In this document: positions 617 to 18,194 of the stretch, one piece after another
Layout of the letters: each line of letters starts with the position of its first letter
Position numbering within the stretch: position 1 is the first letter of the stretch
NCBI GenBank assembly: GCA_029263455.1
Contig: JAJCXM010000001.1
Coordinates: forward strand, 1 to 64,000
DNA: 64,000 nt
Source of the DNA: Holophagae bacterium
GTDB lineage: Bacteria > Acidobacteriota > Holophagae > Acanthopleuribacterales > Acanthopleuribacteraceae
Direction: 5' to 3'
The notes under the pieces: generated by a model
What the model saw: the letters and a program-made list of their open reading frames with translations, nothing else
Databases searched by the model: none
Told to the model about the DNA's origin: nothing
Program-made: the position numbers and the translations under genes

Positions 617-1969
617 ATGGCCCATTATAAGGTACGACAAGGATACACCGTGCCCATTTCTGGGGAGGCAAGCCGGTCCACAGACAAGCTTGGTCCGTCC
701 CCTTTCGTAGGTGTTTGCCCGGTAGATTTTGAACACATCAAGGCCAAGCTACTCGTAGCCGTCAACGACGAAATCAAGATAGGCTCGCCCTTGTTCCGAG
801 ACAAGGTACGCGAGGAGTGCCTTTTCGTTTCACCGGCCTCTGGCAGAATCGCGGCCATTAATTACGGTCCGCGTCGGGTCATCGAAGAAATCGTGATCGC
901 CACCGATGAGCAACCACAACATGTTGATCATCAGGCATTTGACATTGAAGCGTTGGCCGATTTTTCCCGTGAAGCGCTGTTGGATCATTTGCAGAAAGGC
1001 GGCGTTTGGCCCTTTATGAGACAGCGGCCATTCAATCGAATAGCCGATATTAAGCGAAAGCCAAAATCCATTTTCGTTAACTGTACAGACAGCGCACCCT
1101 TGGCCAACGACCCCAACTATTCTTTAAAAGAAAATGACGATTGGTTTGAAGCCGGTGTCGAAGCCATGAAGATTTTGTCTGACGGCAAGGTACATGTAGT
1201 CACCGACGCCAAAGGCGCACATGCGGGCTTCACCCGGCCACGTGGTGTTTCATATCACACCGTCGCGGGAAAACACCCCCGGGGATTGGTAGGCACTCAC
1301 ATCTCGCACATTGATCCGCTCAACCGAGGTGAATGTGTATGGACGATTGCCGCTCGAGATCTAGTTCTAATCGGTGGTTTACTACTTACGGGCCAATTTC
1401 AGAATCAACGAACAGTTGCCATAGCGGGGACGGGCTCTTCCAAGCGACGTTACGTGAAGAGTCAGATGGGTGCCAAGATTAGTCATCTAATCCAAGACTC
1501 CGTGAAGGCTGGAGAGCAGCGAATCATCAGCGGCAATATATTGACCGGTAAGCGTACCAGCGCTGACAGTTACTTAGGTTATTACGATGATCTGGTCACC
1601 ATCATCCCAGAAGGACGGCATAAACACTTTTTGGGCTGGATGCTTCCTGTATTCAATATCCCCAGCTTTGGCCGGGCTTTACCCACGGGATTCATGCCAA
1701 ACAAGAAGTTTGATATGACAACCAACCTAAACGGTGGTCATCGAGCCATAGTCCAGTCGGGTATATACGATCAAGTGATGGCCCTTGATATCCATCCGGA
1801 ATTTCTGATAAAGGCCGCTATGGCTGGTGATATTGACACGATGGAGAAGTTAGGCATGTTGGAGTGCGACCCCGAAGATTTTGCCCTTTGCTCTTATATA
1901 TGTCCCTCCAAAACAGACGTCATGTCAATTGTCAAACAGGGTCTCGAGCTCATGGAGAAGGAAGGATAA
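617..1969 (+). CDS. nqrA: Na+-translocating NADH:quinone reductase subunit A
   Basis: Subunit A of the Na+-pumping NADH:ubiquinone oxidoreductase, the peripheral quinone-associated subunit with no membrane span. The protein has 450 residues, about the family length, and the whole sequence reads as NqrA from the N-terminal MAHYKVRQGYT and GEASRSTDKLGPS onward. The ATG at 617 has an AAGGAGA ribosome site 8 bases upstream. It is the first gene of nqrABCDEF-apbE, all on the plus strand with short gaps or overlaps, so the subunits are probably co-translated. A complete Nqr is common in marine and host-associated bacteria that use a sodium circuit. Confidence 0.96.
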   Translation: MAHYKVRQGYTVPISGEASRSTDKLGPSPFVGVCPVDFEHIKAKLLVAVNDEIKIGSPLFRDKVREECLFVSPASGRIAAINYGPRRVIEEIVIATDEQPQHVDHQAFDIEALADFSREALLDHLQKGGVWPFMRQRPFNRIADIKRKPKSIFVNCTDSAPLANDPNYSLKENDDWFEAGVEAMKILSDGKVHVVTDAKGAHAGFTRPRGVSYHTVAGKHPRGLVGTHISHIDPLNRGECVWTIAARDLVLIGGLLLTGQFQNQRTVAIAGTGSSKRRYVKSQMGAKISHLIQDSVKAGEQRIISGNILTGKRTSADSYLGYYDDLVTIIPEGRHKHFLGWMLPVFNIPSFGRALPTGFMPNKKFDMTTNLNGGHRAIVQSGIYDQVMALDIHPEFLIKAAMAGDIDTMEKLGMLECDPEDFALCSYICPSKTDVMSIVKQGLELMEKEG

Positions 1970-1973
1970 GACT

Positions 1974-3167
1974 GTGAAATTCATACGTCAAATGCTCGAT
2001 AAACAGGAGCACCACTTCCTGAAGGGTGGCAAGCTCGAAAAGTTATATCCATTGTGGGAAGCCCAAGAGACCTTCCTATTTACATCAGACACGGTAACAG
2101 AACAAGGCCCGCACGTGCGAGACGGGCTTGATTCCAAGCGTTTGATGACGATGGTTGTCATCTCTTTAATCCCTTGCGTCTTGTTTGGCGCCTACAATAC
2201 CGGACTCCAGCAAGCTTGGGCCAATGGTCAGGCAAACCAGGATCTAATGAGTCTCGTGTGGACCGGACTGGTAGCCATGCTGCCGATCATCATCGTTAGT
2301 TATGCCGTTGGTGGGTTATGGGAAGCTTTGTTTGCGATCGTGCGCAAACACGAAATCAACGAGGGTTTCCTAGTCACCGGCTTACTTTTTCCACTTGTCT
2401 GTCCCCCTTCTATTCCGCTTTGGCAAGTTGCCGCTGGCATTAGTTTTGGGGTCGTGATCGGCAAAGAGATTTTCGGTGGAACGGGTATGAACATATTGAA
2501 TCCCGCTCTTACAGCGCGCGCCTTTCTGTACTTTTCCTATCCTGCCCAAATATCTGGAGATAAGGTTTGGATATTGGCACAGCCAGAAGGCGTTTCAGGC
2601 GCCACCCCCTTAAACGTTGCTGCTCTGACGCCTAACGGCGGCGACGCCATTGAAGCACTCAATCAATTCGGGAACGGTACCGAACTCGCGTACGGTTTGT
2701 GGGACATGTTTTGGGGTTTCATACCGGGCAGTTTGGGTGAAACATCCGCTGCCGCTTGCCTAATCGGCGCCTTGATCCTAATTGTGACAGGTGTAGGTAG
2801 TTGGAGAGTCATGTTGAGTGTGTTGGTAGGCGCTTGGGCCACTGCTGCAGCTCTTAATTTTGCAGCAACCGACCAGTTACCAGGAATTCTCAGCCTACCT
2901 GCTCACTATCATTTAGTAATGGGCGGACTGATGTTCGGTGCGATCTACATGGCCACAGACCCAGTCAGTGCCACGCGCACAACCAAGGGTATGTACATCT
3001 ATGGATTTCTCATAGGCATGTTGACAATCCTGATACGATTATGGAATCCCGCCTACCCCGAAGGCGTCATGTTGGCGATTCTGTTCATGAACGTATTTGC
3101 GCCACTGATTGACCACTACGTCGTCAACGTCAATGTGAAACGGAGGTTGAAGCGTGTCCAAAGCTAA
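1974..3167 (+). CDS. nqrB: Na+-translocating NADH:quinone reductase subunit B
   Basis: Membrane subunit B of Nqr, which carries a covalent FMN and non-covalent riboflavin and forms part of the Na+ path. I chose the GTG at 1974, 4 bases after nqrA, giving 397 residues starting MKFIRQMLDKQEHHF; an ATG at 1881 inside nqrA is possible but gives an unusual extension. The flavinylation motif SGAT is present, with the acceptor threonine at residue 211, and there are about ten hydrophobic helices. The last 14 bases overlap nqrC. The FMN is expected to be attached by the ApbE encoded at the end of this operon. Confidence 0.95.
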   Translation: MKFIRQMLDKQEHHFLKGGKLEKLYPLWEAQETFLFTSDTVTEQGPHVRDGLDSKRLMTMVVISLIPCVLFGAYNTGLQQAWANGQANQDLMSLVWTGLVAMLPIIIVSYAVGGLWEALFAIVRKHEINEGFLVTGLLFPLVCPPSIPLWQVAAGISFGVVIGKEIFGGTGMNILNPALTARAFLYFSYPAQISGDKVWILAQPEGVSGATPLNVAALTPNGGDAIEALNQFGNGTELAYGLWDMFWGFIPGSLGETSAAACLIGALILIVTGVGSWRVMLSVLVGAWATAAALNFAATDQLPGILSLPAHYHLVMGGLMFGAIYMATDPVSATRTTKGMYIYGFLIGMLTILIRLWNPAYPEGVMLAILFMNVFAPLIDHYVVNVNVKRRLKRVQS

Positions 3168-3990
3168 AAGCAACAAACAGGTCTACATTTTTGCCATCAT
3201 TGTTTGTGTCGCCTGCAGCGTCATTCTGGCTGGAGCGGCGACGCTGCTACAGCCTCGTCAAGCCGTGAATGTCAAGCTAGACATCGTCAAGAACATATTG
3301 GTCGCGGTAGGGCATACGGCTGAGGAGGTCAATTCGGCCACCCCAAAGCAGGTATTTGATATGTACGCCGCCGAGTTTAGCGAGACCTTGGTGGATGCAG
3401 AAAATCAAGGTGCAGACTCAACCTTCATGAAGCAGGAGCTGATCACATTATCTTACCCACGCCAACAGCTAGATGACATGGGTTTAAGCGACATTTTGCG
3501 CATTTTTAACAGTAAGAAAGAATTGCTGGCAAGGCGCTCAAAAAAGTCACTCGAGCAGTATGATCCGGGCTACAAACTAATCCATATTTGGAAACCAAGC
3601 GGAAGTATTGAAGCCTACGTCATCCCTATTGAAGGTTACGGACTATGGGACATTATCAAAGGCTATGTGGCACTTGAGCCTAACCTAAATACGATCAAGG
3701 GAATCAGCTTTTACGAACACAAGGAAACGCCAGGCTTGGGCGCTCGCATAACGGAAGATTGGTTCAAAGAGCAATTCAAAGGTAAGCAGATTCTCGAGCC
3801 ATCTGGTGAACTTGCTAGCGTCACCATTGTACGCGGCGTCGCCAGCGATCAGTATTCAGGATCAGACCTGACCCATCATGTCGATGGAATCTCGGGTGCC
3901 ACGTTGACGTGCAAAGGCATCAACCAGTTCTTAAGCGCGACATTAGCAACCTACGAACCATTTTTCGCAACTTTGCGAAAAGCGGGTTAG
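3154..3990 (+). CDS. nqrC: Na+-translocating NADH:quinone reductase subunit C
   Basis: Subunit C of Nqr, a periplasmic flavoprotein on one N-terminal membrane anchor (about residues 10-30). The FMN attachment motif DGISGATLT lies near the C-terminus, with the acceptor threonine at residue 250 of 278. The start is a GTG at 3154 with CGGAGG about 8 bases upstream, inside the end of nqrB, so translation is probably coupled. NqrC passes electrons between the iron centre of NqrD/NqrE and the FMN of NqrB. The length is slightly above the usual 255-265. Confidence 0.94.
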
Positions 3991-4004
3991 AAAGGGATCG
4001 ATTC

Positions 4005-4676
4005 ATGAGTGTTGCAGAAGCAGTTGTTGAAGTTCAGGCGAAAGCAAAACCTGATTGGTTCGGCAAGAAACAGAAAAAGACCTTAACTGACCCATTTTGG
4101 GACAACAACCCAATCACCTTACAGGTGCTCGGCATATGTTCAGCCCTAGCCGTGACAAGTCAATTAAAGCCGACCGTGGTTATGTGCATTGCCTTGACTA
4201 TTGTTTTGACGGGTTCTAACTTCGTTATTTCAGTCATTAGGCGTCATATTCCTTCCAAAATACGCATCATTGTGATGCTGTCGATCGTGTCGACTTTGGT
4301 GACGCTCGTTGACCAAATCCTCAAGGCGTATGCCTTCGACATGAGTAAGGAATTGAGTGTATTTGTGGGTCTCATCATTACCAATTGCATCGTATTGGGC
4401 CGAGCAGAAGCCTTCGCGATGGCCAATAAACCGTGGCCATCTTTGCTTGACGGGCTGGGCAACGGACTCGGATACAGCGTCATTCTATTGATGGTTGGTT
4501 TTGGTCGTGAACTATTCGGTAGCGGTAGCCTGTTTGGATTTCAGGTAATCCCTCAGGCCTTGTACGACATGGGTTATGTCAATGTTGGCCTCATGGTGCT
4601 GCCTCCGGGAGCATTCATTCTGTTAGGCCTAATTATTTGGGTGCAAAAACAATCATCTAAGCAGTTTGAGGAATAG
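4005..4676 (+). CDS. nqrD: Na+-translocating NADH:quinone reductase subunit D
   Basis: Integral membrane subunit D of Nqr, 223 residues with about six helices. NqrD and NqrE are inverted-topology homologues that hold an iron centre between them; cysteines consistent with this are in the first helix (GICSAL) and in [12 protein letters not shown]. The ATG at 4005 follows an AAAGGGA ribosome site. The open frame extends back to 3909, but that would overlap nqrC by more than 80 bases and add a non-NqrD tail, so the internal ATG is preferred. Confidence 0.95.
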
Positions 4677-4685
4677 GAGCATGAC

Positions 4686-5294
4686 ATGGTTGAACTAATT
4701 AGCATCGCCACAAAGGCGATATTTGTTGAGAACATTCTGCTCGCTTTTTTCCTCGGCATGTGTTCATTTCTTGCTTGTTCAAAGAAAATTGAGACAGCAA
4801 CTGGCTTGGGATTAGCCGTCATATTTGTCTTAGGTGTAACGGCTCCTGTTAACTGGTTAATTAACCACTACTTGTTGCGTGACGGGGCTTTGGCGTGGCT
4901 GGGTTATCCCAATGTAAACTTAAGTTTCCTTCAGTTTATCTGTTATATCGCAACTATCGCAGCCATGGTGCAGCTGGTTGAAATGGTCATGGACAAGTTC
5001 ACACCAGCTCTATACCAAGCATTGGGTATCTTCTTACCTTTAATCGCGGTGAATTGCGCTATTTTGGGCACCAGCTTGTTTATGGGCACCAAGGGTTATG
5101 ACTTCACTGAAAGTACCGTGTTTGGACTTAGTTCCGGGTTCGGCTGGTTACTCGCGATCGTTGCTATGGCGGCCATACGTACCAAACTTCAATACTCCAA
5201 CATCCCACATGGGTTACGCGGGCTAGGAATCACAATGTTGATCACAGGGCTGATGGCGCTGGGATTCATGAGCTTTATCGGTATCAATCTATAA
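4686..5294 (+). CDS. nqrE: Na+-translocating NADH:quinone reductase subunit E
   Basis: Integral membrane subunit E of Nqr, 202 residues with six predicted helices and the family's usual length. It pairs with NqrD; the iron-ligand cysteine contexts GMCSFLAC and VNCAILGTS are both present. The ATG at 4686 is 9 bases after nqrD, with AGGAGC just upstream. The next gene, nqrF, begins 13 bases after the stop. NqrM (7606-7854, minus strand) is the known maturation factor for this iron site. Confidence 0.96.
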
Positions 5295-5307
5295 GGGAGC
5301 TAAGTAC

Positions 5308-6540
5308 ATGAGCGAATTAATTACCATTGGCCTTAGTATCGCAATTTTCACCTTCGTCATCATGACGCTGGTTGTGATATTGACGACCCTTGAAAAACGA
5401 TTAATACCGCAAGGCGATGTCAGTATCTTGATCAATGATGATGCCGAAAAGAGTCCGCTCGTATCGCCCGGCACTACGTTACTGGGTGCCTTGTCTGGTT
5501 CAGGTCTCTTTTTGCCGTCAGCGTGTGGTGGTGCCGGAACCTGTGCGATGTGTAAATGCCAGGTATTGGAAGGCGGCGGCGATATATTGCCAACCGAGCT
5601 GAACCACATATCTCGTAAAGACGCGAAAGACAATTGGCGATTGGCCTGTCAGGTTAAAGTCAAAAATGACATGAAGATACGTGTGCCTGACGAAGTCTTC
5701 AGTATTCAAAAATTTGAGTGTACGGTCCGATCGAACGACAGCGTAGCGACATTCATTAAAGAATTGGTTTTGGATATTGATCACGGCAAACACTTAGACT
5801 TTGAGGCTGGCGGGTATATTCAAATCGATATACCCGAATATCACAATCTCACATATAAAGGCTACGACATCCCCTCAGAGTATCGCGAGGATTGGGATAA
5901 ATATGATTTGTGGAAGTATGTCGCTAACAATCCAGAAGATTGTTTCCGTGCCTATTCGATGGCCAATCATCCGGCGGAGGGCAACATGGTTATGCTCAAC
6001 GTACGCGTTGCCACGCCACCACCGGGACGTGATGACATACCTCCAGGCATTGCATCTAGTTACATCTACAATTTGAAAGCTGGAGACAAGGTCACCATTA
6101 GTGGCCCATACGGTGAGTTCTTCCAACAAAAGACACAGCGTGAAATGTGTTTTGTGGGTGGAGGCGCAGGTATGGCACCGATGCGCAGTCACTTATTTGA
6201 TCTGTTCCATACACAGGACACGAAGCGTAATGTGAGCTTTTGGTACGGAGCCCGCTCACTGCGCGAAATGTTCTATGACGATCAATTTCAGGATATCGCT
6301 GCGAAATGGAAGAATTTCAACTATAACGTGGCATTGTCAGCGGCATTGCCCGAGGACAACTGGACGGGATACACTGGTTTCATTCATCAGGTCTTACATG
6401 ACGAGTATCTCAGTAAACATGAAGACCCAACCGAGATAGAGTATTACCTATGTGGGCCGCCAATGATGATCAGCGCCATGCAAAAAATGCTCTACGATTT
6501 AGGCGTTGAAAAAGAAATGATCATGTTTGATGAGTTTTAG
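5308..6540 (+). CDS. nqrF: Na+-translocating NADH:quinone reductase subunit F
   Basis: Subunit F of Nqr, the electron entry point that oxidises NADH. One N-terminal anchor (about residues 5-27) is followed by a ferredoxin domain with [2Fe-2S] ligands Cys73, Cys79, Cys82 and Cys114, then an FAD domain with the RAYSMAN motif and an NADH-binding domain with GGGAGMAPMRSH and YLCGPPMM. The protein has 410 residues, the family length. An extra cysteine at residue 84 lies next to the cluster loop. The ATG at 5308 follows AAGGGAGC. Confidence 0.97.
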   Translation: MSELITIGLSIAIFTFVIMTLVVILTTLEKRLIPQGDVSILINDDAEKSPLVSPGTTLLGALSGSGLFLPSACGGAGTCAMCKCQVLEGGGDILPTELNHISRKDAKDNWRLACQVKVKNDMKIRVPDEVFSIQKFECTVRSNDSVATFIKELVLDIDHGKHLDFEAGGYIQIDIPEYHNLTYKGYDIPSEYREDWDKYDLWKYVANNPEDCFRAYSMANHPAEGNMVMLNVRVATPPPGRDDIPPGIASSYIYNLKAGDKVTISGPYGEFFQQKTQREMCFVGGGAGMAPMRSHLFDLFHTQDTKRNVSFWYGARSLREMFYDDQFQDIAAKWKNFNYNVALSAALPEDNWTGYTGFIHQVLHDEYLSKHEDPTEIEYYLCGPPMMISAMQKMLYDLGVEKEMIMFDEF

Positions 6541-7605: not shown

Positions 7606-7854
7606 CTAGACAGAAAGACCTCTGTCTTTGCGATTTGGGTTGCCTAACTCTGCTAAGTACAATAATCCGCTCTCATCGTCCGTGGGGCATATCTCCGCCT
7701 CTTTTTTTGCACAGGCCCCGCATGAGGATTCACCAAGTGTAGCCGCAGCCCCTCCGCAGGACCCTTTAAGGGCAATACCACGTACGATATACCCCAATCC
7801 CAGACCTGCAAAACAAACCACAAAAATGGCCAATGTCAAAAGGAAAATGGCCAT
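7606..7854 (-). CDS. nqrM: Nqr maturation protein NqrM
   Basis: Small membrane protein needed for assembly of Nqr, thought to deliver iron to the NqrD/NqrE site. It has one N-terminal helix (MAIFLLTLAIFVVCFAGLGL) followed by the family signature KGSCGG and further cysteines (SSCGAC, EIC). I place the start at the ATG at 7854, which has GGAGG about 6 bases upstream; the frame opens at a TTG at 7869. It is convergent with apbE, with only 24 bases between stops, whereas it is usually on the same strand. Confidence 0.88.
   Translation of the reverse strand: MAIFLLTLAIFVVCFAGLGLGYIVRGIALKGSCGGAAATLGESSCGACAKKEAEICPTDDESGLLYLAELGNPNRKDRGLSV
7608..7627. terminator. Stem-loop between the apbE and nqrM ends
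   Basis: AGACAGA (7608-7614) pairs with TCTGTCT (7621-7627) around a 6-base loop, next to both stop codons of a convergent pair. It could terminate in either direction, but neither side has a good T run. Confidence 0.3.
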
Positions 7855-7923
7855 GGGCCCTCCAATCAACCGAAAGAGTCGGCTAAGATGATTCTAGCAG
7901 AAAAACACCAGGTAGGTTGCGTA

Positions 7924-8235
7924 ATGGACATTGGCTCATTTGTTGTTGCCACAATGATAGACCCCAAAGAGCAGTTTTGGGGGCGCCTGCTTTCCATCAC
8001 AGCCGCAGGCGTAGTGATCAGAGGAATCGATGCCAAACTCACCGACCAATACACCTATCAAGTCGGTAAGCCAGAGCAAGAAGTATTTGCCCAAACTCAA
8101 TTTATTCCTGCACGCCGGCTAATGTCGATATGGCTCGACGAAGCACAGGGTATTGTTCCATCGATAGCCCAACGCATTCGTGACCACAGCTCACTGGATG
8201 ATGACGGCATTTGCGGCATGGTCGGTGACAACTAG
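7924..8235 (+). CDS. Conserved hypothetical protein, about 103 residues
   Basis: Soluble small protein with no signal peptide or membrane helix. The first part, WGRLLSITAAGVVIRGID, looks like a short beta-rich domain that I have seen among unnamed acidobacterial and deltaproteobacterial proteins; I do not know its function. I chose the ATG at 7924 because AGGTAGG lies 7 bases upstream and the protein then begins MDIGSFVVAT; an upstream ATG at 7888 lacks a ribosome site. It is divergent from nqrM and its end nearly touches the end of the membrane gene at 8244. Confidence 0.6.
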   Translation: MDIGSFVVATMIDPKEQFWGRLLSITAAGVVIRGIDAKLTDQYTYQVGKPEQEVFAQTQFIPARRLMSIWLDEAQGIVPSIAQRIRDHSSLDDDGICGMVGDN

Positions 8236-8243
8236 GTAAAGGC

Positions 8244-9203
8244 CTAGAGGTCAGGCTGAGAGGAAACGAATTTCTTGTCTGACCGATGTGGCCAAAACTG
8301 GGGACTTTGCTCCCTACAGTGCCAAGCAAGAATACGAATTTGGGCACTTAGCAAGATGGCCCAAGCAGTACTAATCGCGATCAATTTCCAACTAGCTAAG
8401 CTCATTAATTCATACGTACGAATCCATGGGTTAAGCGGGCTCAATAAACTACATGCCAGGACGAGCAACACAGCCCAGACCCTACTCATTGAGCCGACGT
8501 CTTGTATTTGTTGAGAATGGCTCGCCCGTGAGATCATACCGCCAGCTACAGCCATTAAGATCATTGAGGCAACTAACCAATAGCCGTTGGCATCGAAGAG
8601 CGAGCCAAAGCCCCAGCTATATGCCAAGAGCGAAAGAATACCGTAGGTAATATGTCTACGTATGTCGTTCTGGGCCATAGCCAACAGGGCAAACACAATG
8701 AAGCTAACCAGAGACCAGTATTCGGGAATTTTCCATTCGTAGCGCAGGCCAATCGTCAATCCTTGCCAGCCAAAAAAGGCAACAATTAACAATCCCGATT
8801 GTATTGAGAATCGTCGTGCCCACTCCTGAACGTGCCCATGAAAAGGGATTAGAGGCGCCAGAACTATGCAAATGATGCAACTGGCCAACCTGGTATTGCC
8901 AAACATCAACTCGATCACAACAGCGGTCAAAGCGGCAACAAAGGCCGTTACCAACTTTCTGTATCCGTAGTATTCATGACGACTATCGCGAACAAGCCAG
9001 CAACACCAAGCTATGACAAAAGCTACCCACCCAAACAAATGGAGATCCGTTACCACGGGTACAAGTGCTAAACAGGGTAACAGGCAGGTCACCAAGTCGT
9101 AGCGATTTGCAGATGGGATTCTTGACCAAGCAAAAAGGAAAGCAAAAAAGAACGCAATACTTTGCATGGTGATCGGGGTTAGGTTCATTTGCGTCGAAAC
9201 CAT
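8244..9203 (-). CDS. Diverged NuoM/MrpD-like membrane protein
   Basis: Polytopic protein of up to 319 residues with about nine helices. Its middle resembles the antiporter-like subunits of complex I and Mrp (Proton_antipo_M family): IPFH at 119-122 matches the conserved P-F/L-H-x-W loop, MAQNDIRRHITYGILSLLAY (176-195) matches the AxxQxDxKRxIAYSS segment, and QQIQDVGSM (231-239) matches the loop after it. A glutamate at 265 sits where the antiporters keep one in helix 12. The helix-7 and helix-8 lysines are not at their expected places, and about 150 N-terminal residues are missing, so proton pumping is doubtful. Start: ATG at 9203, or at 9188, where ATGA overlaps the previous stop. Homology is my reading by eye. 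Confidence 0.5.
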   Translation of the reverse strand: MVSTQMNLTPITMQSIAFFFAFLFAWSRIPSANRYDLVTCLLPCLALVPVVTDLHLFGWVAFVIAWCCWLVRDSRHEYYGYRKLVTAFVAALTAVVIELMFGNTRLASCIICIVLAPLIPFHGHVQEWARRFSIQSGLLIVAFFGWQGLTIGLRYEWKIPEYWSLVSFIVFALLAMAQNDIRRHITYGILSLLAYSWGFGSLFDANGYWLVASMILMAVAGGMISRASHSQQIQDVGSMSRVWAVLLVLACSLLSPLNPWIRTYELMSLASWKLIAISTAWAILLSAQIRILAWHCREQSPQFWPHRSDKKFVSSQPDL

Positions 9204-9874
9204 TTGGCAAAGGGTTCAGTAATCAAGAAGACGAGTCCATCAGCGATAACAACGTCGCCGCCTCGCCACAACGTAGATGGGATGGGGGCGACGTATTTGC
9301 CCAATAAGCCATCAAGTAGTCGAAACAAAGGATCACTTGCGTTAGTTATTCGCGCCTGAATCCAAAATACGCCCGCCACGAGGCTCAGACAAAGGGTCCA
9401 AGTTAAATCCGGGAGCCACAAAGCCATCGCCAATAAGACTATAGCCAATACTCGCCACAACAAATGGCGACCTGGCTTTCTGTCACCAAAAAGAGATGGT
9501 ATCAAAAGTACGAGCCAAATAGGCGTTGCATGCAGGGTGATCATGTATCCCCATATTCCAAGGGAGAATGCGTCAATGAGGGCAACAGGGTGTTCAGATG
9601 TGTCGTTCGCCCAACCCATAAATGGGGGCAGAAGCGCCAGACACCAATAGGCGGGTACAGATTCGAAACTTGGCAGGCATATGAGCCACAGAATTGCCAT
9701 TAATTGCCAACCTGCAATCCATGAGGCAGCCCTAATTGAGGAATTTCGGGCCGCAAAAGCCAAACGCACAAGAACAATTACGGGCCACAAATCCAGCCAG
9801 TGTCCCCACCGTGCCGTCCAGGCGCCCAAAATGAAGAGTGAAATGGCACCCAATCGCCAAATAATGGGACTCAC
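9185..9874 (-). CDS. Polytopic membrane protein of unknown function
   Basis: 229 residues, mostly hydrophobic and tryptophan-rich, with about seven helices and a basic C-terminus (FAKWFRRK). It is translated just before the NuoM-like gene with overlapping ends, so the two probably form one unit. The tail from 180 to 215 (LLDGLLGKYVAPIPSTLW, then DVVIADGLV) loosely recalls the C-terminus of NuoL, but this is too weak to name it. It starts about 20 bases downstream of a terminator, so it probably has its own promoter or depends on read-through. Confidence 0.6.
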   Translation of the reverse strand: MSPIIWRLGAISLFILGAWTARWGHWLDLWPVIVLVRLAFAARNSSIRAASWIAGWQLMAILWLICLPSFESVPAYWCLALLPPFMGWANDTSEHPVALIDAFSLGIWGYMITLHATPIWLVLLIPSLFGDRKPGRHLLWRVLAIVLLAMALWLPDLTWTLCLSLVAGVFWIQARITNASDPLFRLLDGLLGKYVAPIPSTLWRGGDVVIADGLVFLITEPFAKWFRRK

Positions 9875-9892: not shown

Positions 9893-9924
9893 AAAAAGGA
9901 GGTGGGACATATTCCCCACCTCCT
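9893..9924 (-). terminator. Rho-independent terminator after the TPR gene
   Basis: A perfect 10-bp stem (AGGAGGTGGG, 9897-9906, with CCCACCTCCT, 9915-9924) and 8-base loop are followed, in minus-strand direction, by five T. It lies 30 bases beyond the stop of the TPR gene and closes the exbB-tonB-TPR operon. Confidence 0.85.
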
Positions 9925-9954: not shown

Positions 9955-11436
9955 TTAGTTTGATTTAAGTGCTTGTGCCATTTGCGGATAAAGATCTGTC
10001 GCAGCTGCGCCGCCACATCTCTTGGCATCATCAAACAATTGTTGCAGTTCTTTGAGTTCGCGTTCCAGTTCTAAGCGCGATTCCTTGATCACGGTACGCC
10101 CTTCTTGGATCGCTGTTTCAAGTTCCGCGGTTGGTTGTGAAATATGCATTTCCGTGTTTCGAGCCAAGCGCTCTTCGTTCACGGCAATTGTATTACGCAA
10201 ATTACCAATATTCTCAAGTGCTCGTTTGCGGTTCTCATCCTCTGTGCGTTGATTGTCTAATAGGATCTGAAGATTCCCTTTTTTGGCGTCAAGATCACGC
10301 TTGATGGCGCTATTACCTGGATTACTTCGGATCCCTTTGTTGAGAATATCAACGGCTTTCTGATAAAGAGGTATGTCGTGTCGATAGCAATCATTCTTTT
10401 GTTGCGTAAAGCTATAGGCCGCAAATACGTAAACATTCTGATTTTGATTGGCGCCCTTAGCGATGGCTTTGTTGTAACTTTCGATGGCCGCATCGTAGTC
10501 TTTGGCTGCCATTTGACAACTTCCTAGCGAGAAGTAGCCCATGCCATCATTGGGTTGCATCTGAACGTATTGTTTAAAGACGGTAACAGCTTCGGTGTAC
10601 CGTTTGGCACCCTGAAGCGCTTGTCCTTTGCGGTTCACCATCTTGGCGTTCTTTGGCCAGATACTGAGAAAACGGTCGATAAAGCCAACGGTACGGTCAT
10701 AAGCGGCGATCTTATCTCTTTCAGATGCCAAGTCTGTTAGTTGAAAGGAGACTTCAATCAAGAAACGATGAGCGTCTTCATGGCGCTGATCTTTCTTGAG
10801 AACTTGCTCAAAGCCCTGAATACAGTTTTCAAGTGACGTTCGCGTCCCCGACTTATTGCCAATTTTGAATTGACTATAAGCTTTCTGGAAAACAGCCTCA
10901 ATGCCTAATCTTGGATCGGGTGCAGTGTATTTTTCAGATTCCGAGAAACTGACGATAGCCTTACTGTAGTAGCTCATCTGTTTTTCTTTTGCGCCAGACT
11001 CTTCGGCAGCTTTGGCGATCTGCAATTCGCATTGACCCCGATTATAGTAGAGATCAAATTTACGCGCACCGGGGACAAGTGGAACTAGTTCGGTGAACGT
11101 CTTAATAGCTGAAGAGTAGTCTTTGCCAGCCATTTGAGTGCGCGCCAGATCGTATTTAACGACAGGGATTTGCTCCGTAGGAATCTCCAGGGTCATGGCG
11201 TCGTTATAACTCGTTAAAGCTTCTCTGTAATTTCCAAGTGCAAACTGGCACTTGCCGCGCAGGAAGATCGAGAACCACCAATCAGGATGGGACGCAATGG
11301 CTTCTTCTAATAAGACTAATGCCTCATTGTATCGACCTGCTTTGTATTCACTATGGGCTCTTTTCCATTCGTCCTGCCCTAATGCCGACGGCATCAAAAA
11401 ACAAAGCAAGACAAGCAATGGCATGATTTTTCTCAT
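9955..11436 (-). CDS. Secreted tetratricopeptide-repeat protein
   Basis: 493 residues with a signal peptide (MRKIMPLLVLLCFLMPSALG) and then TPR repeats through about residue 370, for example EYKAGRYNEALVLLEEAI, GNYREALTSYNDAM and KDYDAAIESYNKAIAKG. A charged coiled-coil follows (about 390-470). The start is the ATG at 11436, with GAGGAG 7 bases upstream. It is the last gene of the exbB-exbD-exbD-tonB-PATAN operon, which suggests a periplasmic scaffold linked to the Ton machinery, but the partner is unknown. Confidence 0.85.
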   Translation of the reverse strand: MRKIMPLLVLLCFLMPSALGQDEWKRAHSEYKAGRYNEALVLLEEAIASHPDWWFSIFLRGKCQFALGNYREALTSYNDAMTLEIPTEQIPVVKYDLARTQMAGKDYSSAIKTFTELVPLVPGARKFDLYYNRGQCELQIAKAAEESGAKEKQMSYYSKAIVSFSESEKYTAPDPRLGIEAVFQKAYSQFKIGNKSGTRTSLENCIQGFEQVLKKDQRHEDAHRFLIEVSFQLTDLASERDKIAAYDRTVGFIDRFLSIWPKNAKMVNRKGQALQGAKRYTEAVTVFKQYVQMQPNDGMGYFSLGSCQMAAKDYDAAIESYNKAIAKGANQNQNVYVFAAYSFTQQKNDCYRHDIPLYQKAVDILNKGIRSNPGNSAIKRDLDAKKGNLQILLDNQRTEDENRKRALENIGNLRNTIAVNEERLARNTEMHISQPTAELETAIQEGRTVIKESRLELERELKELQQLFDDAKRCGGAAATDLYPQMAQALKSN

Positions 11437-11460
11437 GGGTTGCTCCTCAATCGGAACCAC

Positions 11461-12318
11461 TTAGGGCTCTTTGATAATCTTCTTCAATTGGGCTGTAAGC
11501 GCTTTGGCGACTTGCGCATCCTCTAACAACTGAGAGGCTTTTACAATCTGTGATGCTGTCTCAATCACAGCTTCAAGGCTCTTGCCTTCATTGACATCTT
11601 TGACGCCTTTCGCACAATGGCGCTGGATAACGGGGTGAGCCAGTTCACTCATGGCCCCTTTGCTAGCACGATAGATCTTTTCGATCTTGGCCAACAGCCA
11701 TTCTTTTTCATCTTCTGGCGATTTCTTCCCGGGAGCAACTTTCGCCTTGGGTTTTGAAGCCAACGGGTTGGGATCGGGATTAGCCTTCGGTTGCTCACGC
11801 AAGTGCACAAGATCACCAGAGACCAATCCATATATGAGCTTGGCGACATCGACGGGAATCATGCCCACTTGCTTAGCAATGGAGCGAATACTATTGATGC
11901 CATTTATTTTGGATAATACGTGCCATTCTTGGGTATTAAAGCTCACCTTTTTATTACCCAAGCTATCGAGCTCCGGTATGAGGTCAAAAGATGGGATTTT
12001 TTTACTCAGAACGCGCCATTCGTCGAACTTACGCGCGACTTCCATGAGAATAAAGGTGTTCTTCTTGGTAACGGTTTGGTGGGTCGCCGCTACATCTTCT
12101 TCGAAGACAAACGTGCCTTGATTCCAAATTGCTAGTGAGTAGATAGCGTCCTCACCTTTGAGTTCATCGCATACTGCATGCACAATCTGCCCTTCACGCA
12201 AATAGATGAATCCACTATCTTCCTCGTGGTTTAGCTTGAAACGACCTGTTTTGGCCGACACACTCATAAGTTGAATGATATCGGGTAATTTGACATCGTT
12301 GAGAGACCCTTGGAACAT
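11461..12318 (-). CDS. PATAN (DUF4388) domain protein
   Basis: 285-residue cytoplasmic protein. Residues 1-110 are a PATAN/DUF4388 domain (MFQGSLNDVKLPDIIQLM, then TGRFKL and GFIYLREGQIVHA), a module common in Myxococcota and Acidobacteriota regulators. Residues 135-175 look like a winged helix (WHVLSKINGINSIRSIAKQ). A proline/lysine-rich linker and a helical tail follow. It sits between tonB and the TPR gene with a 24-base gap to the latter. The role is unknown; PATAN domains are thought to mediate protein contacts in two-component and motility regulation. Confidence 0.8.
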   Translation of the reverse strand: MFQGSLNDVKLPDIIQLMSVSAKTGRFKLNHEEDSGFIYLREGQIVHAVCDELKGEDAIYSLAIWNQGTFVFEEDVAATHQTVTKKNTFILMEVARKFDEWRVLSKKIPSFDLIPELDSLGNKKVSFNTQEWHVLSKINGINSIRSIAKQVGMIPVDVAKLIYGLVSGDLVHLREQPKANPDPNPLASKPKAKVAPGKKSPEDEKEWLLAKIEKIYRASKGAMSELAHPVIQRHCAKGVKDVNEGKSLEAVIETASQIVKASQLLEDAQVAKALTAQLKKIIKEP

Positions 12319-12384
12319 GTTTAGCGCTCAGTGTGAAAGATTTCGGCCGAAGCCAAGCATAGAGAAGTAGCCCCTTTACAGGAG

Positions 12385-13110
12385 CTACTGTAAGATGAAA
12401 TCGATTTTCAATGTCATTCTTACGTCAGCTGGTTTCCCGTTTACTTTGCCAGGTAAGAATTTCCATTGTTTGAGCGCGTTCATCGCCTCATCTTCGAACC
12501 CAAACTTGCCTTTCCCCAATCCACGAAGGACTTTAATTTCGTCCACCGCCCCGTCTTTACGAAGAATCGCCTCCAGAATGACATATCCTTGAAGCTTAAT
12601 TTTCGCAGCTCGGTCCGGGTAGTTGGGCTTGATTTTTTGTGTGAATACAGGAGGTTCTACACCTACCTGACCCACACGGGCAATGGTATCGCCTTGAGGT
12701 TCAGGTGGCCCGTCTGGAATACCAATTTCCCAATCGTCCGTTGGCAGTACTTCCGGCTCGGGTGGTGGGTCTGGTTCAACAATGGGCTCCGGCTCATCCG
12801 GAGTCATGTCTGGCATAGGTACTTTCTTAGCTTTTTTCTCTTGCGTCTTAATTTTTTCGATCGGTTTCTCAGGCGGCGGCTTCAGAACCTTGCGTTTCTG
12901 AGGCTTATTATCCTCCGTTGTCACCGTGAACACCTTATCGCCAAAAGACGGTAAGGGTGTCCAAATCAAGAACAAAACAAAAAGAAGCGACGCCAGCAAG
13001 CCTTTTTTGGCATAGGCGCCATCTTCAGCATCCGCGAAAGCCATAGCCATTACAGCCGAATGATCAGCACCATCATCGAAATTTAGGTCGACGGTTTTCA
13101 CATCACTCAT
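12385..13110 (-). CDS. tonB: TonB family energy transducer
   Basis: 241-residue TonB-like protein. A cytoplasmic N-terminus is followed by one helix (about residues 38-52, LASLLFVLFLIW), a proline/glutamate/lysine-rich periplasm-spanning stretch (70-135) and a C-terminal TonB domain (about 155-241, PNYPDRAAKIKLQGYVILEA). It passes proton-motive force from the ExbB/ExbD motor encoded just upstream to an outer-membrane receptor. The ATG at 13110 has AGGAGA upstream. No TonB-dependent receptor lies in the window. Confidence 0.9.
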   Translation of the reverse strand: MSDVKTVDLNFDDGADHSAVMAMAFADAEDGAYAKKGLLASLLFVLFLIWTPLPSFGDKVFTVTTEDNKPQKRKVLKPPPEKPIEKIKTQEKKAKKVPMPDMTPDEPEPIVEPDPPPEPEVLPTDDWEIGIPDGPPEPQGDTIARVGQVGVEPPVFTQKIKPNYPDRAAKIKLQGYVILEAILRKDGAVDEIKVLRGLGKGKFGFEDEAMNALKQWKFLPGKVNGKPADVRMTLKIDFILQ

Positions 13111-13122
13111 TAGGATCTCCTA

Positions 13123-13581
13123 TCACTGCACGCCATACCTGGAATATCGTTCCGCTTCCTCTTTGGAAGGGATGGTGATCGCCAAGTCGGTTTGCAGTTC
13201 TGCGCCCACTCGTTTGAGCTGGTTAAAAACGGATACCATGTCGCCATACCTAGCCTCACGGTTGGTATGTAGAATGATCGGTTTCTTCGCGTTTGTTTGA
13301 ACCTTCCCCATCACGTAATCGAAGACAACCTCCACGTCGTCAATTGCGTGAGGTTTTTGGTCCATCACGAATTGACCACTGGGGTATATCTGGATATACA
13401 CAGCTTCTTCGTTTTCCGTGTCTTCAAGCGGGGTATCGTCCTTCGGCGGTAACAGATGTTCAATTCCTTTGTTGGCCGAGAAGACCGTCGTAAGCATGAA
13501 GAATACGATCAAAAGAAAGGCAATATCTGCCATCGATGCTGTAGGAATTTCCGGTTCTTCTTTTTTGGTGTTGTCTTTCAC
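13123..13581 (-). CDS. exbD: ExbD/TolR biopolymer transport protein (second copy)
   Basis: 152 residues with one N-terminal helix (MADIAFLLIVFFMLTTVF) carrying the conserved aspartate and a periplasmic domain. It follows the other exbD by 14 bases. ExbD dimers plug the ExbB pentamer and use the Asp for proton translocation. The start is a GTG at 13581 with GGGGGAA upstream. Its acidic stretch (DDTPLEDTENEEAV) is absent from the first copy, so the two probably form a heterodimer rather than being redundant. Confidence 0.92.
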   Translation of the reverse strand: MKDNTKKEEPEIPTASMADIAFLLIVFFMLTTVFSANKGIEHLLPPKDDTPLEDTENEEAVYIQIYPSGQFVMDQKPHAIDDVEVVFDYVMGKVQTNAKKPIILHTNREARYGDMVSVFNQLKRVGAELQTDLAITIPSKEEAERYSRYGVQ

Positions 13582-13595
13582 GGTTCCCCCTTGTC

Positions 13596-14015
13596 CTACT
13601 TGGACTGTTCCGTCAGGAACTTGAGATTCGTGACGCCCGCGTTACGGAGATGTTCGAGTACATCATCGATTTTTCCATAATCGACTTCTGCATCGGACTT
13701 CACCACGACCGGCTGGTTGGGGTTCTTGTTCATCCACGAAGCAGCAAGAATGCCGATATCTTCGAGGTTAACCAGACGACTATCTTCAATGCCGTCTGAC
13801 GCCTTCAAAGCACCATCCTTGCGAATCACCACAAAAGCCGAACCTTTCACCACTTCAGAGCGCGTTTCGGTGGCACTCTGAGGTAGCTGAACCGTTGTCT
13901 TATCCACCTGAAAGACAGTGGAAATCATAAAGAACACGATCAGAAGAAAGGCGATATCAGCCATTGAGGCGGTGGGAATGTTTGCTTTAAGTTCCCGCGT
14001 TTTTGATATTTTCAT
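13596..14015 (-). CDS. exbD: ExbD/TolR biopolymer transport protein (first copy)
   Basis: 139 residues with the family layout: short cytoplasmic N-terminus, one helix containing MADIAFLLIVFFMISTVF with the conserved Asp, and a periplasmic domain. It lies 20 bases after exbB. The near-identical helix in the second copy shows they arose by duplication, while the periplasmic domains have diverged. Confidence 0.93.
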   Translation of the reverse strand: MKISKTRELKANIPTASMADIAFLLIVFFMISTVFQVDKTTVQLPQSATETRSEVVKGSAFVVIRKDGALKASDGIEDSRLVNLEDIGILAASWMNKNPNQPVVVKSDAEVDYGKIDDVLEHLRNAGVTNLKFLTEQSK

Positions 14016-14035
14016 GGGTCCTGCCTCTGGGCAGC

Positions 14036-14656
14036 TTAGATGCTGCGTTCCATATGCGAGAAAGATTCCATTAGAACGGCTGACGCCGATTCAATCTCGC
14101 GGATAAAGCTGTTTACACGCGTCGTGAAATAGCTGTACGCCAACAAGGTTGGTACAGCAACAATCAGGCCACCTGCAGTTGTGATTAACGCCTGCGAGAT
14201 ACCTGCGGCCACGGCGCCCGGATCATTCAGCTGCGACAAAGCTTCGAATGAAGCGATCATCCCAGTAACAGTTCCCAAGAATCCCAAGATAGGGGCCAAG
14301 TTTGAAATCGATGACAGAACAGGTAGACCCCGCTCCAAACGAGCGATCTCATGCATCGCAGCGTTTTCCATCGTTTTCTCAATTTCCTCTTTGGGATCGC
14401 CAAACTTCATCAACCCTGTTTTCAGGATAGATGCGATGGGCCCCTTGAATTTTTCACAAATCTGGACCGCTTCTTTGACGTTCTTGTTCTTTAGTGCGGC
14501 GCGAATCTTGGTGAGAAACTCCGCGGTATTAATCTTGGCTTTTGCAAGGGCTACAAAACGCTCGACAGTATAAGTAAGGCCTATAAGAAGCAAAACGACG
14601 AGTGGTCCCATGATAAACAGGCCACCCTCGATGATCTTGGTAAGAATAAAGCCCAC
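14036..14656 (-). CDS. exbB: ExbB/TolQ/MotA proton-channel protein
   Basis: 206 residues with three helices: residues 10-30, about 120-142 (APILGFLGTVTGMIASF) and about 155-180 (LITTAGGLIVAVPTLLAY). These two long motifs are the MotA/TolQ/ExbB signature. It forms the proton channel with ExbD and energises TonB. The start is a GTG at 14656 with GGAGGTAG about 8 bases upstream. It is the first gene of the operon and follows a recognisable promoter at 14712-14741. Confidence 0.94.
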   Translation of the reverse strand: MGFILTKIIEGGLFIMGPLVVLLLIGLTYTVERFVALAKAKINTAEFLTKIRAALKNKNVKEAVQICEKFKGPIASILKTGLMKFGDPKEEIEKTMENAAMHEIARLERGLPVLSSISNLAPILGFLGTVTGMIASFEALSQLNDPGAVAAGISQALITTAGGLIVAVPTLLAYSYFTTRVNSFIREIESASAVLMESFSHMERSI

Positions 14657-14933: not shown

Positions 14934-17900
14934 TTAGGGCCCAGATTTGGCGGCTAATTTTATTTCAATAATTAATTCAAAAACTTCTTCGATGCGCAGA
15001 TGAAGCCATTGTTTGGCGCGAAAAAATACCGCATAAACGACCGGAATCACGAGTAGGGTCGATAAGGTTGCACTTAACATACCGCCTACCGTCGAGCGCG
15101 ACAGGCTCGAAAAGGTGGCCAGCGTTGTTTGTAGCCCTTGATTCTCCAAATTACCCAATTGGATATCGATATCCAAAATCCTGAACACAAAGGCGATCCA
15201 GCTCAACTCCATCATCCAGCGCACAAAATCATCCAATAATGGCAGAAGTCCGACAATAGTGGTTATGGCTGTCAACAAAACAGGACGTAATCGGTCACGA
15301 CAGGCACGAGCGATGGCATCATAAAAGCCCTCGCCCTGATGATCGGCTAGCCTAACTTCGGTATTGATATGAGACACCAACAGGATCGAGTTGTTGACCA
15401 CGATCCCTGCAAGGATGATAAGACCGATCATGGATGTCGAGTCGAAACTTTGCCCCGTAAACCAATAAATCCAAACGACGCCGATCAACGACAATGGAAT
15501 CGTCAAAAAGATGACTAGGGGGTCCACAAACGACTCATACAAGGCTGCGATGATCATAAAGACGAGCAAGGCTGCAAAGCCAAAGACCCGCAGAATATTA
15601 CGGGTTTCGTCTTCCGAGAGATGTTCCGTGAAGTCGAGTTCAGCGGAGAAGCCCGGAGGCAGCTCTAGACTCTCGAAAACAGCCTCGTTGAAATTACGTG
15701 CTTTCTTAGCCGATGCACGATAGTCCCAGCGCACACTGACCGAATACTGTTGGTCCTTGCGGTCGATGCCGCCAGATACCGACCTAGTGTCTAACGAGAC
15801 AAGATCCGCAAGCCGTATTCGATTACCTGCTTCAGTCAAAATCACTAATGACTCGAGGTCCTTAATGTCAAATTCATCAGCATCTTCGAATTTGACCTCC
15901 AAATACATCTCTTCGCCCTGAAACTTCGTCCTTGACCGTGATTCGACTTGCAAGTTACGGCCAATAAAGCCCAATAGATATTCAATGTCGATATCATGGT
16001 TCTTGAGTTCTTCGCGGTTTATCAGCAACAAGGTTTCTGTTTGTTCGCTAGCACCAAAGCGGTTAGATGAGGTTTCTAGCTTAGTCGACTTGACACGTCG
16101 ATCACGTTTCACGCGACTCAAAATATCGTTGCCATAGTCCATCAGCTTCTTGTAGTTGTAGCCAAGCAGTCGAACCGACGAGTTATACGACTCAAATCCT
16201 GTTGATCCAGAATAATAGTTGTCATCGTTCGAAATACCCATGACGCCAACGCCAATACCAGCTAATCGTTGCGCAATCCCAATGAGCCGGGATTTCAACG
16301 TTAATGGGAACGCCGACGCCAATTGTTCAGCTTCAAAACTCACGGTTAGTCTCGCGAAGTTCTGATACACCGTCGTTTCGACATCTTTGTAACTTGAACG
16401 TTGTAACTTGCCCATTTCGAGTAACGGTTCCTCGAACTGCCGAATCACGTGATCCGTCGTTTCGAGTTCCGCGCCCTCAGGCATGCGCACAAAAATAGAT
16501 AACTGGTCGTTGCGTCCAAAGAAAAACGAGAATCCACCCGTCTCAATTTCATTTTTGTTGATATAGAAAAAAGTCACACCGAGTGATCCGGCAACAACAA
16601 GAACTAACAGCTTGTGATGCAGCGACCACGACACCACGCGTCGATAACGCTCTGTGAAGGCGTCGAGCAGCCGCCCTGTCACACGCTGAAAAAGATTACT
16701 TCTGCCAGACGCCTGCAGAGCCGAGCCTCTGATCATTAAACTGAGTATTGGCGTAAAAGTGAAAGAAACAACTAATGAAGCTGATAGAGAAAAAATGACC
16801 GCGATTGCTAAGGGCAAATAGACCACAGACAAGCGATCTTCAAGCCATAACATACAACCGAATGCGGCGACGGTGGTCAATGTAGCTGCAACAATTGGCC
16901 AGACCACTTCCTGAGCACCCAGTATGGCCGCTTCAAATTTGGTGGCACCATTTTCGCGATGCCTGAAAATATTCTCAAGAACCACAATCGCGTTGTCGAC
17001 GAACATCCCAAAACCGATGGCCAAGCCGCTCAATGTCATGATGTTGAAGGTCAATCCGAAGTAGTACATGAAATTAACGGTAATCAACACGGAAAACAAA
17101 ATATTTAGCGTGATGACTAGCGCAGAAGACGCGCTTCGCAGGAAAAAGAGCAACAGGATAATGATGAGGCCGACACACCAAACTCCGCGTCGATAGATCG
17201 ACTGCAGTTGCTCCTCCATGAACTCGCCTTCGTCTGCGATCCAATCGACGCGTACTTCAGGTTTATTGGCTAACCGTTGCTGTACCGTTGAACGCACCAA
17301 TTTGGCGGCCTGGATGACGTTTGTGCCGACTTCTTTTTCAAGGTCTACCCTCAATGTAGGGTTGCCATTGATACGTGAATAGCTCTGAACTTTGGCATAA
17401 CCTAGGCTCACATTGCCCAAGTCTTTAACACGCACCAATTGATCGCCAAACTGCCATACAACTAAGTCTTCAACCGCGTGCGTATCCGCAATTGAGTTCT
17501 CGATGGTGATGGTATATTCCTGATTGAGCAGACGTGTTCTTGATGTCTCATAGGTCTGCGCCAATGCATTGACACGGCTCAACACTTGATTAGGAACCAG
17601 ACCGTACAGGTCCATCTTTTCACGGTCAAGCTCGACCCTTAATTGCTTGTCTCGCTCGCCGAAGATACTAATATCTGCAACACCATCTAACGAGCCAACT
17701 GAGTCTCGAATCTCCTCCTTAACGATCTCCGTCAGGCGCTGCAAATCGTAGGGACCTGAAACGGTAAAGGTCATGAAGCTGGTGTCTGATAAAGGCCCAC
17801 TTGCGAATTCAGAGATGACAGGTTGACTGGCTCCAGGTGGCAAATCCTCGCGTAACTTTGAAAGGCGTTCGTTTAAGTCGAGACGCGCAAAGTCCATATC

Positions 17901-18194
17901 CGTCTCACGGTTAAATTTAACCGTGACTTGGGCACCTTGACGGCGCGTAGACGAACTGACGATCTCCTCAACACCTTCTACTTGGGCCGCCACCTCTTCG
18001 ATTGGCGAGGTCAGGAATATCTGGACTACCTCAGGTGAGGTGTCCCCCCAAGTTGCTTGCACGACCAATTGTGGAAGGCCGACATCCGGTTGGCCTTCTA
18101 TACTCAAGTTAAGGTATGAAATAGCACCTAATATCACGATTGCGGCGTAACACATGCCCACCGAAACAGGGCGATTCATCAAGAAACGAATCAT
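14934..18194 (-). CDS. RND efflux permease (AcrB/HAE family), second of two
   Basis: Inner-membrane RND transporter of 1086 residues with the usual layout: helix 1, periplasmic porter domain, helices 2-6, second porter domain, helices 8-12. Helix 4 has GMFVDNAIVVLENI with the proton-relay aspartate, and late helices have GIVVNNSILLVSHIN. The ATGA at 18194 overlaps the stop of the preceding pump. An extra 44 residues (about 988-1031, containing RWMMELSWIAFVF) sit before the last helix, where the usual short loop is expected. With the adjacent pump it may form a mixed trimer like MdtBC. Substrate unknown. Confidence 0.9.
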   Translation of the reverse strand: MIRFLMNRPVSVGMCYAAIVILGAISYLNLSIEGQPDVGLPQLVVQATWGDTSPEVVQIFLTSPIEEVAAQVEGVEEIVSSSTRRQGAQVTVKFNRETDMDFARLDLNERLSKLREDLPPGASQPVISEFASGPLSDTSFMTFTVSGPYDLQRLTEIVKEEIRDSVGSLDGVADISIFGERDKQLRVELDREKMDLYGLVPNQVLSRVNALAQTYETSRTRLLNQEYTITIENSIADTHAVEDLVVWQFGDQLVRVKDLGNVSLGYAKVQSYSRINGNPTLRVDLEKEVGTNVIQAAKLVRSTVQQRLANKPEVRVDWIADEGEFMEEQLQSIYRRGVWCVGLIIILLLFFLRSASSALVITLNILFSVLITVNFMYYFGLTFNIMTLSGLAIGFGMFVDNAIVVLENIFRHRENGATKFEAAILGAQEVVWPIVAATLTTVAAFGCMLWLEDRLSVVYLPLAIAVIFSLSASLVVSFTFTPILSLMIRGSALQASGRSNLFQRVTGRLLDAFTERYRRVVSWSLHHKLLVLVVAGSLGVTFFYINKNEIETGGFSFFFGRNDQLSIFVRMPEGAELETTDHVIRQFEEPLLEMGKLQRSSYKDVETTVYQNFARLTVSFEAEQLASAFPLTLKSRLIGIAQRLAGIGVGVMGISNDDNYYSGSTGFESYNSSVRLLGYNYKKLMDYGNDILSRVKRDRRVKSTKLETSSNRFGASEQTETLLLINREELKNHDIDIEYLLGFIGRNLQVESRSRTKFQGEEMYLEVKFEDADEFDIKDLESLVILTEAGNRIRLADLVSLDTRSVSGGIDRKDQQYSVSVRWDYRASAKKARNFNEAVFESLELPPGFSAELDFTEHLSEDETRNILRVFGFAALLVFMIIAALYESFVDPLVIFLTIPLSLIGVVWIYWFTGQSFDSTSMIGLIILAGIVVNNSILLVSHINTEVRLADHQGEGFYDAIARACRDRLRPVLLTAITTIVGLLPLLDDFVRWMMELSWIAFVFRILDIDIQLGNLENQGLQTTLATFSSLSRSTVGGMLSATLSTLLVIPVVYAVFFRAKQWLHLRIEEVFELIIEIKLAAKSGP

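Follow-up and report, generated by a model that had tools for sequence, protein, structure and literature searches.

Gene content of the locus

The window, by which we mean the whole stretch of 64,000 nucleotides, carries the nqrA-F operon of the Na+-Nqr (617..6540, plus strand), the NADH dehydrogenase of the window's family, and next to it apbE (PF02424; 6544..7581, plus strand), which encodes a flavin transferase. Beside apbE, on the strand opposite nqr, a gene (7606-7869, minus strand) encodes a small membrane protein that bears the motif CGG...CGAC and that we take to resemble the Nqr maturation factor NqrM; a Pfam search with its copy in the sister species (L025:7458-7727, minus strand) returned no match. 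A small conserved protein without an assigned family is encoded at 7888..8235 (plus strand), convergent with the two open reading frames that are the subject of our study.

These two frames, ORF2 and ORF1, lie on the minus strand at the positions that the sequence-only reading had given them, with ORF2 upstream of ORF1. ORF1 (8244..9188 including the stop codon, 8247-9188 without it) encodes a cut-down NuoM-like membrane protein, which we designate nuoM'. The earlier reading had placed it correctly and given it 319 residues, the length obtained from an alternative ATG at 9203; the start is most likely the ATG at 9188, which yields 314 amino acids and forms, in the sister species too, an ATGA overlap with the preceding gene (9185..9188, minus strand, as read from the sequence), where the start of ORF1 and the stop of ORF2 share bases. 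ORF2 (9185..9874), designated nuoL', begins with a GTG behind AAGGAACGGCC and encodes a membrane protein of 229 amino acids that resembles the C-terminal part of NuoL. Both proteins are strongly hydrophobic and tryptophan-rich; on a simple scale, we counted about 10 and 9 hydrophobic stretches in the two ORF1 sequences and 7 and 4 in those of ORF2. The spacer between ORF1 and its 3' neighbor measures 8 bp in the window, and in the sister species the two stop codons overlap.

Upstream of the pair, a terminator-like hairpin with a T run (9897..9924, minus strand) separates ORF2 from the gene of a TPR protein (9955..11460), which is the last member of a block that is common to families of the class (9955-14656, all on the minus strand). 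The block starts with an ExbB/TolQ-like gene (PF01618; 14036..14656) and continues with two ExbD-like genes (13596-14015 and 13123-13581), a TonB-like gene named by sequence (12385..13110), and a gene for a DUF4388 protein (11461..12318). The ORF2-ORF1 pair lies immediately behind an exbB-tonB-TPR block and on the opposite strand from nqr. Upstream of exbB and on its strand, two large genes of the RND efflux pump type, also named by sequence, overlap each other by 4 bases (14934-21718, minus strand).

The sole other genome of the genus is the metagenome-assembled genome of a sister species, Acidobacteria bacterium HKST-UBA04 (G001:C27), and the pair is present there in the same place. Its locus (L025) was reached by synteny through the TPR and NqrF neighbors; a plain protein search of related genomes missed it. 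The ORF1 orthologue lies at L025:8079-8942 and the ORF2 orthologue at L025:8939-9571, both on the minus strand, and the hairpin just before ORF2 has its counterpart at L025:9587-9607. Gene order is identical in the two species (nqr, apbE, small ORF, ORF1, ORF2, TPR, DUF4388, TonB). The identity between them is 28% for ORF1 and 34% for ORF2, against 88% for NqrF, 83% for DUF4388, 70% for TPR, and 53% for ApbE. BLAST scores of 57.8 bits (ORF1) and 65.5 bits (ORF2) stand far above the maxima of 26.6 and 28.5 bits reached in 1000 block shuffles, which identifies both pairs as true orthologues that have diverged very fast. The 28% global identity of ORF1 is barely over that of composition-matched shuffles (mean 25%), which argues that constraint on this protein is weak or tolerant of change.

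Similarity of ORF1 and ORF2 to NuoM and NuoL

To classify ORF1, we built a profile from the window and sister sequences and ran it against 396 genomes of the phylum, 139 of which gave matches at E values up to 0.01. The best matches outside the genus were fetched as 28 loci (L052-L079), and all 28 are NuoM or NuoL; they were chosen as best matches, and the point is that none of them is another protein. On these sequences, the profile scores 13.8-25.5 bits, compared with at most 7.5 bits on 551 composition-matched shuffles and at most 1.1 bits on reversals. The sequence-only reading had made its proposal depend on a significant profile match, and such a match was found with hhalign at an E value of about 1e-9, with 0 of 40 shuffles scoring as high. 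Across the comparisons of ORF1 with NuoM, the probability was 95-97%, E ranged from about 1e-8 to 4e-10, the global alignment took in 278 columns, and the scores were 68.6 (local) and 51.8 (global), against maxima of 25.1 and 8.1 in the 40 shuffles. Among all 14 Nuo subunits and the controls, NuoM ranks best, NuoL second, and NuoN lower.

The alignment covers positions 181-501 of the 553 in the NuoM profile. The IPFH, AMAQNDIRR, and QQIQDVG landmarks of ORF1 align with the PFHTWLPDAH, AMAQ.D.KK, and I.DFGG loop motifs of NuoM, in the NuoM order that had been proposed for them; the shared features can be written as PFH, AMAQ.D.(K/R)(K/R), and I.D(F/V)G, and they are those of NuoM within PF00361. 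ORF1 differs from NuoM in its H.QEW motif and in its length, since it has 314 amino acids and the 14-helix NuoM has about 500. An N-terminal loss of about 150 residues had been noted before; the loss stands, and its extent is larger, at about 180 profile positions, with the C-terminal end shortened too. An hmmscan of ORF1 gave no match to PF00361 (Proton_antipo_M), which falls below the HMMER reporting level. On this evidence, ORF1 is a truncated NuoM.

The residues on which pumping by NuoM depends are not kept. The TM7 lysine is replaced by Leu in the window's ORF1 and by Trp in that of the sister species, and neither sequence has the TM8 lysine, as had been claimed for the lysines of helices 7 and 8. 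The TM5 glutamate is not preserved either. These assignments depend on aligning sequences that have diverged strongly, but the two species agree. NuoM-type proton pumping by ORF1 is very unlikely because the TM5 glutamate and the TM7 and TM8 lysines have been lost. A glutamate near the helix-12 position, which had been pointed out as a landmark, falls in different columns in the two species and is therefore not supported as conserved.

ORF2 resembles NuoL weakly but specifically. Its local score against NuoL is 33.8, compared with at most 21.2 in 40 shuffles (local P 0.001), and the match is weak and confined to the C-terminal tail, which agrees with the faint likeness to the NuoL C-terminus seen earlier. 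NuoL is the best match, and no other Nuo subunit, TPR, ExbB, or TonB protein rises above noise. The two proteins share the pattern LW...DV.I.DG.V, and the gene order is also that of nuoL, just before nuoM; in ORF2, the stretch WRGGDVV..DGL is identical in both species and differs partly from the NuoL majority. In contrast to NuoL, with its full antiporter domain and long lateral helix, ORF2 has only 229 amino acids, most of the pumping domain is missing, and similarity is low. The match is thus weak but apparently real, and what would be a poor case alone is made good by synteny.

Other searches returned no relative. Searches with single sequences and with two-sequence profiles found none in Pfam, NCBIfam, PDB, or plasmids, and ORF1 patterns found none among GTDB genomes. 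AlphaFold models were too poor to be used, with pLDDT values of 52.6 (ORF1, from a single sequence) and 42.9 (ORF2, from two sequences), and a Foldseek search with the ORF1 model returned no significant match, which is no surprise at this model quality. In the literature, we found no account of a nuo remnant of this kind, and a paper on Acanthopleuribacteraceae, which may be the window's family, mentions neither Nqr nor NADH.

The probable former nuo site and the respiratory genes of the family

The position of the pair is explained by comparison with a sister family of the same class (f3), in which about 11 kb separate the TPR orthologue from NuoM. In the locus of this family that was fully read (L110), the genes for ExbB, two ExbD proteins (in the same order as in the window), TonB, DUF4388, and TPR lead, across a gap of 15 bp, into nuoA-B-C-D-E-F-G-H-I-J-K-L-M-N, behind which comes a gene for a Rex-like repressor; the Nuo subunits and Rex were identified from their sequences. 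Four other loci of the family agree with it as far as they extend: L112 and L114 have TonB, DUF4388, and TPR beside nuoL and nuoM, and L111 and L113 have TonB and DUF4388, with TPR matches coming from a separate search. In the window, the same exbB-exbD-exbD-tonB-DUF4388-TPR series leads directly into ORF2-ORF1, that is, into the nuoL-nuoM order. The same upstream block and the same order of the two genes indicate that the pair apparently occupies the former site of the nuo operon.

Complex I itself is absent from the window's family. NuoH (PF00146) and NuoD (PF00346) were found in 0 of its 7 genomes, with positive controls detected in 11 of 14, and NqrF orthologues are present in all 7 and in 0 of the 54 other genomes of the class that were searched. 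From the absence of NuoH and NuoD and the presence of NqrF, we infer that Nqr replaced complex I in this family. Taken with the synteny of the sister family, this makes the pair a probable in-place nuo remnant, so the proposal of a degenerate complex I antiporter-like pair is borne out and can be sharpened to a nuoL'-nuoM' pair that marks the old nuo locus.

An origin of the pair from an Mrp system was considered and rejected on the basis of gene order and of lower scores on the ORF1 profile. MrpA and MrpD belong to the same superfamily as ORF1 and are present in the window's genome, but they are full length, are encoded elsewhere, and are less similar to ORF1 than NuoM is. The Proton_antipo_M matches in this genome form an Mrp-type cluster (L085:5500-12300; G000:C7) with three consecutive antiporter-like proteins of 500, 490, and 596 amino acids, and in other genomes of the family such matches are few and clustered. 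One member of the family (G002, 3.5 Mb) has no Proton_antipo_M protein at all and does have Nqr; it therefore lacks a standard Mrp as well as complex I.

The pair is restricted to the genus. It was absent from all five genomes of other genera in the family, so that 2 of 7 family genomes have it and 7 of 7 have nqr. In three of the five (G003, G005, and G006), the small ORF adjoins the TPR gene directly, and in the other two (G002 and G004), other genes follow the TPR gene. Where one contig carries both, about 115-138 kb separate the nqr operon of the other genera from the TPR block, and adjacency of the pair to nqr occurs in this genus only.

Retention, decay, and possible roles of the pair

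Whether the two frames are kept by selection was judged from their divergence. Between the two species, the third codon positions of the neighboring genes have changed almost to saturation, and both frames are open in each. The probability that a neutral ORF would stay open at 20% divergence is 0.0005 for ORF1 and 0.0025 for ORF2, and at 30% divergence this happened in 0 of 2000 runs; this retention argument is based on two genomes. Position-wise codon identity was also tried as evidence of selection and was dropped because composition-matched shuffles give nearly equal values. The open frames, the ATGA overlap, the short 3' spacer, and the shared motifs that have changed favor a role that has been kept and altered, and intact orthologous frames at such divergence suggest a retained non-pumping role. 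The global identity, so close to that of composition-matched shuffles, and the hairpin ahead of ORF2 in both species point the other way.

We consider it probable that the pair is what complex I left behind in its original place, retained as a non-pumping membrane heterodimer. The ancestor would have had the arrangement exbB-exbD-exbD-tonB-DUF4388-TPR-nuoA..N, which is still that of the sister family. In the window's family, complex I would have been replaced by the Na+-Nqr, with nuoA-K and nuoN lost, nuoL shortened to its C-terminal part (ORF2), and nuoM reduced to its middle part (ORF1). Both genes would then persist because of some other activity, most likely as a small non-pumping membrane heterodimer that preserves the old NuoL-NuoM contact. 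The two proteins would be translated as a coupled unit and would have lost their link to NADH oxidation and ion transport, and our best guess for their role in the cell is a structural or regulatory one in the membrane.

A different explanation is that the pair has no function and is decaying, with chance or very weak selection accounting for the pieces of nuoL and nuoM that are still open in both species. Divergence to 28-34% identity beside neighbors at 70-88%, the loss of the pumping residues, and the complete absence of the pair from five other genomes of the family would all fit decay, as would the terminator just upstream and the lack of a clear promoter when one was looked for. However, a neutral ORF would not be expected to stay open as far as the near-saturated third positions of the neighbors imply, and decay does not sit well with BLAST similarity far above shuffles, with WRGGDVV being identical in both species, or with the shared ATGA overlap and the 8 bp spacer to the 3' neighbor; we therefore regard a functionless relic as unlikely. 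It is considerably less probable that the pair serves the Na+-Nqr as an accessory, coupling, or assembly module, as the sequence-only reading had suggested. In both species of the genus, the pair adjoins nqrA-F and apbE, and every genome that bears the pair has nqr; but it lies on the opposite strand, convergent with the small ORF, and the old nuo locus fully accounts for its position. The co-occurrence that this role would imply was not found, since 5 of 7 family genomes carry nqr without the pair, and with nqr some 115-138 kb from the block in same-contig cases of other genera, adjacency confined to one genus leaves a coupling or assembly role unsupported. The Na+-Nqr would be the functional substitute for complex I in the family and has no homology to the pair, and the place of the pair beside nqr is positional only. 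We also think it improbable that the remnants of the distal pumping subunits of complex I now form a new small membrane complex that helps the Na+-Nqr, for instance in its assembly or regulation.

Continued movement of ions (H+ or Na+), by the pair on its own or in concert with either the Mrp antiporter or the ExbBD channel, seems very improbable to us. Its descent from antiporter-like subunits would be compatible with such an activity, the genome has the Mrp-type cluster of three antiporter-like proteins, and ExbBD is encoded upstream; against this, the TM5 glutamate and the TM7 and TM8 lysines are not kept in the NuoM alignment, and much of NuoL is missing. We give still less credence to a separate acquisition of the pair, for instance from an Mrp-like or another NuoL/M-bearing system, that came to lie at the old nuo place by accident. 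The absence of the pair from the other genera of the family would fit this explanation, but the position and the L-M order are as in the nuo operon, with the same genes upstream, and the Mrp proteins of the family score below NuoM on the ORF1 profile.

As an in-place remnant of complex I, the locus would capture the sodium pump Nqr taking the place of respiratory complex I inside a single bacterial class, with what is left of the old operon still readable where it stood. The part worth following is the persistence of two truncated subunits as intact genes. If selection truly keeps both shortened subunits, they would be a case of antiporter-like subunits outliving both their complex and their pumping residues, and the pair would let one ask what antiporter-like proteins do besides pumping.
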